Assembly (NCBI RefSeq): GCF_024679095.1
Contig: NC_066552.1
Coordinates: forward strand, 14,767,323-14,831,322
Direction: 5' to 3'
DNA from: Eriocheir sinensis
Taxonomy: Eukaryota; Arthropoda; Malacostraca; Decapoda; Varunidae
Length of the DNA stretch: 64,000 nucleotides
The translations under genes and the position numbers were made by a program. Shown here piece by piece: positions 30,531 to 46,595 of the stretch (positions are counted from its first letter, which is position 1; every line of letters starts with the position of its first letter). The notes under the pieces are model-generated. The model did not search any database and was not told where the DNA came from. It was given only the letters and a program-made list of their open reading frames with translations.

Positions 30531-30572
30531 GCAGTAATCAAGGATAGTATAAGAGTAGAGGATGGATGAACA
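30531..30572 (+). repeat. P element left end: 8-bp target duplication + 34-bp TIR
   Basis: GCAGTAAT at 30531-30538, then the TIR 30539-30572, identical to the complement of 46554-46587. The start codon of the transposase lies only 121 bp farther on. Confidence 0.93.
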
Positions 30573-30692
30573 ATGCGGTACATATCGCGATGAAGTGTGT
30601 GGCGATATGCCTCTGTTAGATGGCAGCACCGGCGGTTCCTTGCTCAGTCTACTCCGGTCACCCAGTGAGGTCGCATCTCTTTTTTTGAAAAC

Positions 30693-30793
30693 ATGGCGCC
30701 AACGAATGTTACCAGTAAATGTTCTGCGTGTGGGAAAAGCAAGAAATCTACGCCAGGAATACGACTTCACCTGCTACCCAGAGATGCCAGAAG
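30693..30793 (+). CDS. P element exon 1: first half of the THAP zinc finger
   Basis: Starts MAPTNVTSKCSACGKSKKS, with the CxxC half of the C2CH zinc site, and LHLLPRD as the conserved 'HxFP'-like segment. It ends in phase 2 at a consensus donor (AG/GTATGT). The ATG is the only plausible start: the CxxC follows ten residues later, as usual for THAP proteins. Confidence 0.9.
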
Positions 30794-33700
30794 GTATGTA
30801 GTATTAGAATAAGTAGCATGTAATGAATAAATAGAGCACAAATTCAAATTAGGTGAGGTTAACCGATTTTCCGCTTTCGTCCCCAGCCCCTCAGCGTCCC
30901 CAGATTAGTGTACGGATCCTTTTAATTTCCTTATATGCGCCAAATCTGGGAACTAAGCACATAGGGATTAATAGTGAGCGTTAATGAATATCTGTATGGT
31001 ATAACTTTCTTCATGAGAGCAAGAAACTTATGGAAAAAAACACAAAAACACGTGTTGTGCATTTTTTTCCTATAACGACTTTATCCTTCTTATTTCTTCA
31101 CTTTTTTCTTTCTTGATGTGCCTTAAGGTATGTACTATTTAAATAAAGTGCTTGTAACGAGTAAATATGGTACAAATTCAAATGAGGTTCCCTTCCCCAA
31201 CTCATAAATGGCTTTTTGCCCATATAAATAACCATATAATACTTAAAGTGAGAGTAATGAGCAACCATAGGGTATAGGAGAATTAGGAATGATGTGTGTT
31301 GTCTTAGGCCGGGTTCTAGCAGTATCATTACCATTATAATGTATAAGCGTCCAGTTCCATAATTTGATGATAAATCGTAATGTGTAATATATGGTTTTGA
31401 AATTTCATCTTTCTTTAAACTTTCTATCAAGAGAAAAGTGTCTTTTTTTAAGTTAAATATTTTTGCATATTTTTTGAAAAAAATAGATAAAGAGCATTTT
31501 TAAAACATTACTAAAAATATGAAAATAATAAAAAAAGACATTTTTCTCTTGATAGAAAGTTTAAAGAAAGATGAAATTTCAAAACCATATATTACACATT
31601 ACGATTTATCATCAAATTATGGAACTGGACGCTTATACATTATAATGGTAATGATACTGCTAGAACCCGGCCTGTTTCTTTTGTTATGAACATAAGATAA
31701 ATCCTTTAGGGTACTTGAGTTTTGTAAAGGTTTCTGATTTTTTTATTTTTATAGCAGAGGAGGCGGCACAAGGGCAAAACAAATATTAAAAAAAAAAGCC
31801 CGCTAAAATTGCCGCAACCTTAAAAAGAATACAGAAACATGAGAGCTCAAATCCGTGTGGAGCTTAAAACTGAGTAAGATCTTAAAATGCTCGTGTATCC
31901 CCTTATACACCTTGTTTTCTATAGTCTACTTCGGCTTCTCATGTTTATTACATTTGGGGGGAGGTTTGTCTATTATTATTATTTTTTCTTTTCATGGGAA
32001 AGAAATTGAGCCTAAACCCGTTCAGTATTTTTTCCTATAACGACTTATGTAAGGCCTCTCACATGCTGTACTCTTAATTTCCTTCTAATTTCTTATTTTC
32101 TTCCCTTATTTGAAAGAGGTGATGTACTGTTCGATAAAGTACTTGTAACAAATAAATAGAACACTTTCAAATTCTGTGAGGTTAACTAACTATCATCCCC
32201 AGCACATGTATGCAGTATGGTACGTTTTAATAACAATATATAGTTCATACACAGGAACTGAGTACATAAGGATTTCAAGTGAGTGATGAACAACTTTATG
32301 GTATAATTTTTCTAATGCAGGGGAAGAAATAAATTAAAATAATCCACAAACACGTTTTATGTAATTTTTTCTTAGAATGAGTTAAGCCCTTTCTCACCTC
32401 TTCACCTCCAAATTTATTCTTAATTTCTTTCTTTGTTTTACTTTCAGTAACCCTTCAAGTGATATATATATTATATATATTATATAAAAAAAACATGGCC
32501 AACCAAAGTGTCCTGGGTTCGATTCCCAGTTGAAGTTGAAAGAAAATCAGACACTTTTATGTACATTTCCTCCATGGACACCTACTGATAAATTGATAAC
32601 AGGAGTTTGGCAGGGGATGAGGGCCTAATTTGTATTTGTGACCTCCCTTAAGTAGTTAGGCATATTTGTAAAATAAGGGGTTGTGCATCATGCACCACCT
32701 TACACCTTGTTGCTATAAATCTTTCATAATGCATGTCATGACTGTTTCCATAACCTGCCATGCTCATGGCACAATGTATATTCAAGGATACCTCTATTGA
32801 TACAGCTTGCCTAACATTTGCCTTCTCACATAAGTGCTGTTGCATAAACAGTTCATTATATTGCAGACGGCATGAGTGGTTGCTGGCCCTTGGCATTGCA
32901 TACGAGAGGTCTTCCCAAGTAGTATGCAGCGATCATTTTCATGCTGCTTACCAAGGAAGCAAAGGAAGGCTTCTCAGCACGGCAATACCTCGTCCCTTCA
33001 ATGCTAGTGAAGAACACCCACACCGAGAAACGCACACAGGTAAGAATCTAATATCAGTGAGATTAATTTTGTTAATTTCAATTTGTTGTGAAAAAAAGTC
33101 ATATTTACTTATTTTTGTAACACACACACACACACACACACACACACACACACACACACATACAGAGCACCTCATGATTTGCACATTATGATTATATTCA
33201 CATATTTTATTTTCAGTTAACACTGAGAGGCCTCCCGCTGTTCCTGCACCCGCCTCAGATGTGGTCACTCTTGAATATGGTAAGTTATAATTTGTTTTAC
33301 CTTGACCTATTACATGTAAGGTTCCATTCATGGTATACTGAGTAGAAAAGTTGATATTAACTGCTGAATTGCATAAGTAATTTTTTTTTTAGAGAGCCTA
33401 ATTTTTTTTTTATATATTTCACAGAATGCCCAGGGACAACAACCACTCATGACAGTATCGACGAGACAATTTCCTCAGGAGTGCTGCCTTGTGATACCTA
33501 TGGTGAGCTTATAAATGTTCTTGACAATTTTCAACATTATTTAATATTTAATATTTAATTTCACTCTGCATGCTTTATCCATGTAATTCTTTTCCACAAT
33601 GGTTTGATTGTCTATTATCCCTGCGGACATTCGCAACCCTCTGCACTTCTTCGTCTATGACTGCGGATGTTTATGAAAGATTATAATATAATACTCAATG

Positions 33701-45232: not shown

Positions 45233-45869
45233 GTTCGAGGACAGTAGCAGCAACAAGTAAATAAGCGCGCGGGATGTTTGTTTTGGTTCTGGCAGGAGGG
45301 TTCGTCAATTTCGATTTCGGCGTCAACTGAGCAGATCATTTCGGCTTCGGCCACATTTTCGTTTTTTCGCAAAAAACACGTAACGGTTATGTGTTCCATA
45401 CTTACTGTGCGAAGAATAATCTCTAGAAAGGCGATACAAATTATTTTTTTTGTAATATTCGCTTTGGTTCACTCGTGAAAAATGATGTAGCTGCAACACC
45501 CCTTCGATCACTGTTTCGCCTCTAAAAAGATATTTACATTATGTACTTGAGTTGACATCATAAATTATTATAGACAAATAACATTGTGTTTATATTAGTA
45601 AGAATATTGGTATTGAAAATTAATATGTATGGTAAATAAGATTTTTTTCAGGATGCCACTTGGCTGAGCGAGACAAATTCTCCCCGCGTAATTAAGCGTG
45701 CTGGTGACTCATGACAACTATTGACTATTGGTGATTTGCGCCATTTGCCTTTGGTGAGTACATATCCTCAGATTATGGTCCCTTACATAGCACCAATTTT
45801 GAAAACCACTGTTATTTTGCTGTCCCATACCTGCATAGCTGTACATGTACTGCTAAATGTCTTAAAATC

Positions 45870-46310
45870 TGGCTGTCCAGCTTACCAGTATTCAACATAG
45901 ACCTATAACATTCGCATATATATGAAACTTCATGTAATTATTTTGTCTAATTTTCTTTCAAGTTAGTGGTTATTTTTTTTTTTTTTTTTTTTTTTACTAT
46001 ATATAGGCATGTATGTGTTGACCACGCTTGCTTTTTACTCTCATAGGTTACATAGTATTAATTCTTTCATTTCCATTCTTTCTTTTATTTTGTGCAACTT
46101 ACCAGTATTCAACATTAACCTATAACATTTGTATTATATGAAACTTAGGAAATAAGACCATGTATTTCTTTTTTATACTTTTCTTTCGTTATTATTTTTT
46201 TAACAGTATATAGGCATTTATGTCATGACCATGTTTGCTTGTTTACTCATAGAATGGATAGTATTACTTCTTTGATTTTTTCTATTATATTTTATTTAAG
46301 TACTGAATGA
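45870..46310. repeat. Tandem duplication, two ~218-bp copies
   Basis: CTTACCAGTATTCAACAT.. followed by CCTATAACATT occurs at about 45880 and again at about 46099. ATAGGCAT.TATGT...GACCA and ACTCATAG follow in each. The copies have diverged by point changes and by a T-run (45966-45994) in the first. It lies in the 3' part of the P element. Confidence 0.8.
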
Positions 46311-46553
46311 TATGTCTTGCCATTTATTTGTTTTCACATTGTAATCATTGTTTAAGAAGATATTAATAAAATTATATACATGACACTTTAATTAACATAA
46401 GATTTATAAATGTGGGTGCGTTGAAGTGTCAGGAGGGCTAATAAACAAGGCATAAAAAATACTGAAGTCTACCATAAATCATAAAACGTTTTCTATAAAC
46501 ATATCCACGTCCGCCAGAGGGAAGCACTGGCGCAACCTCCAAGTGTCTCCCGC

Positions 46554-46595
46554 TGTTCATCCATCCTCTACTCTTATACTATCCTTGGCAGTAAT
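46554..46595 (-). repeat. P element right end: 34-bp TIR + 8-bp target duplication
   Basis: TIR 46554-46587, the exact complement of the left end, followed by GCAGTAAT at 46588-46595. A GTAGTAG repeat tract continues outside. Confidence 0.93.

Follow-up and report, generated by a model that had tools for sequence, protein, structure and literature searches.

The P superfamily of transposons is listed in an arthropod survey for all species investigated (PMC6327564), and P-elements of a crustacean, Daphnia pulex, have been tabulated (PMC2884549). The residues D230, D303 and E531 are named as catalytic in the Drosophila enzyme (PMC7776569), and the targets of the P and 1360 elements tend to ANAGT...ACTNT (PMC4168063). 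For the ISL2EU group, an A|AT|T target, a terminal inverted repeat (TIR) usually starting with GG, an open reading frame (ORF) with DDE, helix-turn-helix (HTH) and THAP parts, and a second ORF for YqaJ have been described (PMC4482050). Here we report on a stretch of 64,000 nucleotides from the crab Eriocheir sinensis, called the window below (contig NC_066552.1 of assembly GCF_024679095.1; G000:C44:14767323-14831322 in our genome search), in which an earlier reading of the letters alone (the original prediction) had marked positions 30531 to 46595 as one complete P-type transposon. We conclude, with a probability of about 0.93, that this block is a P-superfamily transposon of 8,575 bp which was later invaded by an ISL2EU transposon of 7,472 bp, and that short palindromic copies belong to the same P family.

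Ends of the P element and the transposon nested in it

The two ends of the P element, 30539-30572 on the plus strand and 46554-46587 on the minus strand, are reverse complements of each other at 34 of 34 bases, and the pair reached an E value of 5.85e-10 in a dust-filtered self-comparison of the window; elsewhere in the window the TIR is matched at 23 of 34 bases at most. Immediately outside them, the same 8 bp, GCAGTAAT, stand as the target-site duplication (TSD) at 30531-30538 on the left and 46588-46595 on the right, as seen by comparison within the window. Alignment with other copies assigns 30539-38270 to the 5′ part, which is broken off after 38270, and 45745-46587 to the 3′ part, both on the plus strand; the length given above is that without the nested insert. 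One point weighs against so direct a reading of the duplication: both flanks are GTA-rich, so that an 8-bp TSD alone is weaker evidence than it appears. Exact 8-mer matches between the flanks are found at 17 of 2,601 position pairs within the nearest 58 bp and at 55 of 40,401 within 208 bp, and another GCAGTAAT occurs at 46747. The window TSD is nevertheless accepted as real, because every two-ended copy of the family (14/14) has an exact 8-bp TSD. Both the perfect 34-bp TIRs with their duplication and the 8-bp length expected of a P transposase were thus rightly described in the original prediction.

These copies come from one search of the 1.765-Gb assembly with the 5′ end of the P element, and the copy numbers are lower bounds. 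The 34 rows of the search paired into 20 places, namely 14 two-ended ones (the window copy, L009-L020 and L021) and six one-ended ones on contigs C2037, C71, C1536, C43, C16 and C11. The 14 two-ended copies represent 13 distinct sites. L013 (on C1360) and L014 (on C1333) share their flanks, over 400 of 400 bp on one side and 37 on the other, and their TSDs are reverse complements; they probably represent a single insertion that the assembly contains twice, perhaps through a duplicated haplotype, and were counted as one site. Among the copies L009-L020, all 12 have an exact 5′ TIR and 11 an exact 3′ TIR, the exception being L010 with one mismatch; in L021, one TIR has a single mismatch and the other is 9 bp short. 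According to the original prediction, the 34-bp end at places without the transposase body would speak against a P element. Such places do exist in the genome, but they are copies bearing their own TSDs, which speak for a transposon and not against it, and we rejected them as a counter-argument.

The perfect outer ends do not enclose a single transposon. At 38268-38282 and 45731-45745 there is a perfect 15-bp inverted pair, A AT GGCGCAAATCAC ... GTGATTTGCGCC AT T, which delimits a nested element of 7,472 bp (38271-45742) with the TIR GGCGCAAATCAC, standing between two AT duplications (38269-38270, in the context A|AT|T, and 45743-45744) that were recognised from this pair and from the copy alignment. 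In all 12 copies L009-L020 the sequence continues from the base corresponding to 38270 directly into that corresponding to 45743, and the two sides have nothing but the 2-bp AT in common. Moreover, a probe of 60 bp per side containing the AT once was uninterrupted at every one of the 17 fetched loci in which the site is present (L009-L021 and L023-L026), with 100% identity over 118 of 120 bp in 16 of them and 88–95% in the diverged L021; it matched the second arm as well at 94% in L012 and 99% in L020, and had no match in L022 and L027. Because the other copies run through this point with the AT present once, 38271-45742 is a later insertion, made at an A|AT|T site after the arrival of the P element.

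The nested element carries two genes. Gene 1 (39069-41861, plus strand) encodes a YqaJ exonuclease at 41001-41861, with a sub-threshold SAP match upstream at 39069-39635, and gene 2 (42521-45232, minus strand) encodes a THAP domain at 45232-44879, where the frame is broken, followed by HTH and DDE_Tnp_4 domains at 43501-42521. The Pfam families found in the element are PF13359, PF13613 and PF09588, and the THAP stretch matches P0121, which has PF05485. Over 242 residues, the transposase of the nested element shares 99% identity with the same P0121, which its source names Eriocheir sinensis LOC126990093. This agrees with the arthropod host deduced in the original prediction, here a decapod, although transfer between species may also account for such a match. 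With its A|AT|T target, GG-starting TIR and THAP-DDE and YqaJ genes, the nested element resembles the ISL2EU group of the PHIS superfamily as described; no difference from that group was noted, and we regard it as an ordinary member with a broken THAP exon. Its TIR is weak by itself, since 15 bp was reached in 2 of 300 Markov controls, and this counts against the assignment as far as the ends are concerned. Two side observations belong to this element: the THAP exon of the minus-strand transposase gene has frame breaks in the window, and at 39840-39930, between the two pieces of the YqaJ gene, a stretch resembles a tRNA-derived repeat to the eye, which neither ARAGORN nor Rfam reported.

The perfect outer TIRs and TSD would also be expected of a single 16-kb transposon normally carrying four genes, which is how the original prediction had read the block in calling it complete. 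That reading is ruled out for practical purposes, and we give it a negligible chance, because none of the 17 other fetched loci with the site has 38271-45742 in it, and this segment has a TIR, an AT duplication and a gene pair of a known group of its own. For the annotation of transposons, the lesson is that flawless outer ends do not prove a single transposon between them.

Transposase gene, target sites and age of the P family

The transposase gene of the window copy begins with an ATG at 30693, 121 bp inside the TIR. Seven exons on the plus strand are predicted, their joins resting on splice sites and frame: exons 1 (30693-30793) and 2 (32867-33039), which hold the first and second halves of the THAP domain and are placed by protein match and splice borders; exon 3 (33217-33279), with AG/GT borders and a length divisible by 3; exons 4 (33425-33502), 5 (33708-33833) and 6 (34681-34836, 156 bp), placed by splice borders; and exon 7 (35666-37730), placed by Pfam and by a match to a structure in PDB. 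With AG/GT borders and compatible phases throughout, we infer that they are spliced into a message for a predicted product of about 921 residues. The P-type domains lie at about 35.7-37.7 kb, where an HTH is followed by an RNase H domain split in two by a GTP-binding insertion. The Pfam families PF12017, PF21787, PF21788 and PF21789, with the names Tnp_P_element, TNP-like RNaseH_N, GBD and RNaseH_C, exceed their cut-offs in stop-to-stop frames of the window. The structure of the Drosophila P transposase, 6p5a, is matched with E values of 1.3e-25 and 1.4e-4 by two frame pieces (93.5 bits at best), and in these matches D230, D303 and E531 of the Drosophila enzyme align with Asp, Asp and Glu. The THAP domain of the window rests on P0010, whose residues 1-32 and 32-82, a stretch with PF05485, are matched at 47% by 30693-30794 and 32865-33017; the Pfam score for PF05485 (38.1 bits, cut-off 23.9) was obtained with the joined predicted exons 1-5 of copy L010. 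A P-type gene with THAP and catalytic motifs at this distance from the TIR, as originally proposed, is therefore confirmed by the domains and the aligned acidic residues.

The frame of the window copy is not intact, which weighs against this copy as a source of enzyme. Compared with P0001, exon 7 is broken twice, once at about 35866 and once at about 36240 within a run of T. P0001, from a public protein cluster, is a 704-residue open frame with an intact last exon, and its identity with the window is 98% over the query. Furthermore, exon 6 is shorter than the 159 bp seen in L009-L011 and contains three in-frame stops (codons 191, 206 and 212), none of which is present in those copies. As read, the window copy would be unable to make the full enzyme and would need a helper. 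The broken frame bears on autonomy and not on membership in the P superfamily. As a separate observation, predicted intron 1 contains an inverted repeat at 31306-31673 with 145-bp arms, found by self-comparison; its arms are 99% identical, and L010 has it as well. In L009 and L011 it is replaced by about 12 unrelated bases, and hence it is not a simple insertion with duplication.

The target motif was derived from the 13 sites, each half being read from outside to the centre. Within the duplicated 8 bp, the first two bases favour G (9 left and 7 right halves) and T (9 and 9), the base preceding them favours A (7 left and 5 right halves), and two bases further out a T stands in 9 of the 13 left halves. 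The matrix of the left halves scored -21.8 on the right halves, and only 3 of 5,000 shuffles were as good. Several points speak against giving the motif much weight, as it comes from 13 sites only, the score across halves lies below zero, and in the right halves A is as frequent as the outer T (6 and 6). From these sequences the target appears to be P-like and partly palindromic, roughly TNAGTNNNNACTNA, and it resembles the 14-bp palindrome of the Drosophila P element and the ANAGT/ACTNT tendency (PMC4168063).

The family is young, because its four long copies differ pairwise at only 0.37–0.75% of aligned sites, the AT-repeat being excluded. A fairly young insertion had already been supposed from the perfect ends, and the divergence bears this out. 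For the mechanism, we propose by analogy with the Drosophila P element that the THAP domain would bind the element ends and that the GTP-assisted RNase H site would cut and rejoin DNA; transposition would then be of the cut-and-paste kind, entering a partly palindromic target and leaving 8-bp duplications.

Palindromic derivatives and the question of present activity

Nine short copies (L012-L020) are 1.4-3.15 kb long and non-coding. Non-autonomous copies are likewise present in the P element of Drosophila melanogaster. The crab copies are not plain deletions: each opens with 117 bp from the 5′ terminus, which agree with the window at every base in 9/9, continues with the reverse complement of its own 3′ end and closes with the 3′ end itself. 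This structure is similar to that of Galileo and Foldback elements. By self-comparison, six of the nine (L012-L015, L018 and L020) have arms of about 1.25 kb with 96–99.7% identity, and L016, L017 and L019 lost more of the palindrome. Where the two parts meet (the junction), TIR bases 1-5, CAAGG, open the inverted part and adjoin base 116/117 of the 5′ end; the 12 bp that should come next are missing, and the sequence goes on with TAGAGGATGG. L020 departs from this by one base, and L017 deviates further in. The outer terminal 845 bp of the derivatives are about 1–2% from the window copy, L021 apart. L021 (G000:C21:14453468-14458048) has the same junction with about 9–10% divergence over its 3′-type end, and the junction is thus present in 10 of 10 derivatives (L012-L021) at 9 distinct sites. 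As a side observation, the 5′ 105 bp of L021 are almost unchanged (99%) beside the 3′-type end diverged by about 9%, which suggests that L021 may be a chimera of, or a conversion between, old and young copies.

Palindromes and nested structures could be assembly artefacts, given that the structures were read from the assembly alone and that the flanks common to L013 and L014 on two contigs indicate that the assembly holds some duplicates. Such an origin is extremely improbable here, because the same junction recurs in every derivative at nine distinct sites and is found in L021 at about 9% divergence. The derivatives probably have one origin and would then have spread in trans. Since each distinct derivative site has its own exact 8-bp duplication, the short copies were likely mobilised in trans, probably by the enzyme of the family.

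As to how the palindrome arose, we infer that an element inserted in inverted orientation near base 117 of the 5′ end of another, and that the middle was then lost. Template switching during the repair of an excision gap, or end-to-end conversion, could have produced palindromes without any self-insertion, and both have been proposed for Galileo (PMC4168063, PMC3573991); we consider this a serious competitor whose chance falls somewhat short of even. Against it stands the start of the inverted part with CAAGG directly beside base 116/117, as expected if a whole element end had inserted.

The question of whether the family still moves is affected by the state of its genes. All six transposase-bearing copies examined (the window copy, L009, L010, L011, L023 and L026) are broken, each differently, which counts against a family that is now active. 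In L009 the last exon is interrupted by a stop, with a frame shift further on, and L011 is frame-shifted late; L010, whose last exon is open, has lost a splice acceptor and is stopped in predicted exon 5; and the last exon of L023 and L026 is open over 559 and 381 residues compared with 711, their 5′ parts not being found in the flanks fetched. The breaks in these six copies favour the explanation that the family is extinct, i.e. that a recent burst was followed by the breakage of every autonomous copy and that no transposition takes place at present. However, the copies carry different defects, the TIRs are identical in 11 of the 12 fetched two-ended copies L009-L020, the long copies are less than 1% apart, and the last exon is open in P0001. 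In addition, unbroken copies may be unseen, as there was one genome search only, and some of the breaks, being small indels (one of them within a T run), may stem from errors of the assembly. Extinction is accordingly plausible without being the better bet. The original prediction suggested that active P elements may survive in the lineage. This is possible in view of the differing defects and the open last exon of P0001, but it is unproven, with six of six copies broken.

Considering both sets of observations, we regard it as possible, at odds below even, that a still-mobile crab P family is turning into a Foldback/Galileo-type one. An inverted self-insertion, with the inner TIR crippled by the loss of 12 bp, would have produced a palindrome with arms of about 1.25 kb that may be spreading in trans by means of rare autonomous copies. 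Within the same tentative reading, the palindromic lineage would have outlasted at least one round of helpers, because young copies and one diverged by about 9% have the same junction.

Other elements in the window and comparison with known systems

Several other elements were observed in the window. A second, different P-type transposase lies at 60802-63240 on the plus strand, with HTH, RNase H and GBD domains; it is 97% identical to P0019 over 76% of the query, has a stop after 62391 and is frame-shifted near 62570 and 62636. Neither TIR nor TSD was found for it, including in 8 kb past the window, where the best inverted match was 13 bp with 4 of 8 TSD bases. Satellite-like arrays are present at 53330-55863 (44-bp unit, 57.7 copies) and 24508-25278 (101-bp unit, 7.6 copies), and reverse-transcriptase frames (RVT_1) on the plus strand at 11906-12841 and 26906-27250 are probably parts of elements of the long interspersed nuclear element (LINE) type.

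Relatives of the P transposase in the databases include a lobster protein, P0314, that is named P transposase-like, and a prawn protein, P0248; none was found in viral contigs, either by protein or by the 34-bp end. The original prediction was not aware of P elements characterised in such a host. This holds for the decapod family, which is new, but not for the superfamily, which has been published for arthropods, including Daphnia, and which already lends its name to the lobster protein. No decapod P family with ends and TSDs was found in the accessible literature, where other wording or subscription papers would be missed. New here are the palindromic class of derivatives and the decapod P family itself, described by its ends, its target motif and its young copies. 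Together with its transposase-free copies, these features would make P transposition testable far from flies and vertebrates.

Compared with known members of the superfamily, the crab element is like the Drosophila melanogaster P element in its THAP domain, its RNase H domain with a GTP cofactor, its D-D-E residues, its 8-bp TSD and its palindromic 14-bp target (PMC7776569, PMC4168063). Unlike that element, which has a 31-bp TIR, it has a TIR of 34 bp and a length of 8.1-8.6 kb with predicted introns, its transposase is distant in sequence, as the bit score of the PDB match indicates, and its derivatives are palindromic. Zebrafish Pdre2/THAP9 likewise combines a P-type transposase, TIRs and 8-bp TSDs outside Diptera (PMC10983969). 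However, Pdre2 has a 13-bp TIR with 12-bp subterminal repeats according to the same source, whereas the crab element has no comparable subterminal repeat: a search for subterminal inverted repeats in its first and last 600 bp gave only poly-A matches and one 9-bp match (with at least three G/C). The P-elements of Daphnia pulex (PMC2884549), compared by description only, are similar in representing the P superfamily in a crustacean. Galileo of Drosophila has long inverted arms too (about 300 bp to 1.2 kb), and it further shares with the crab family the extension of the TIR from internal sequence and the P-type transposase (PMC3573991, PMC4168063). Nevertheless, the TSD of Galileo is described there as mostly 7 bp (GTATTAC), whereas that of the crab family is 8 bp at 13 of 13 sites, and the long crab copies have short TIRs, the long arms being found in the non-coding derivatives only. 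By its 8-bp TSD and its short-TIR long copies, the crab element is a member of the P superfamily set apart from Galileo, and the derivatives standing beside such long copies could be used to examine by what route P-superfamily transposons gain long arms of the Galileo type.

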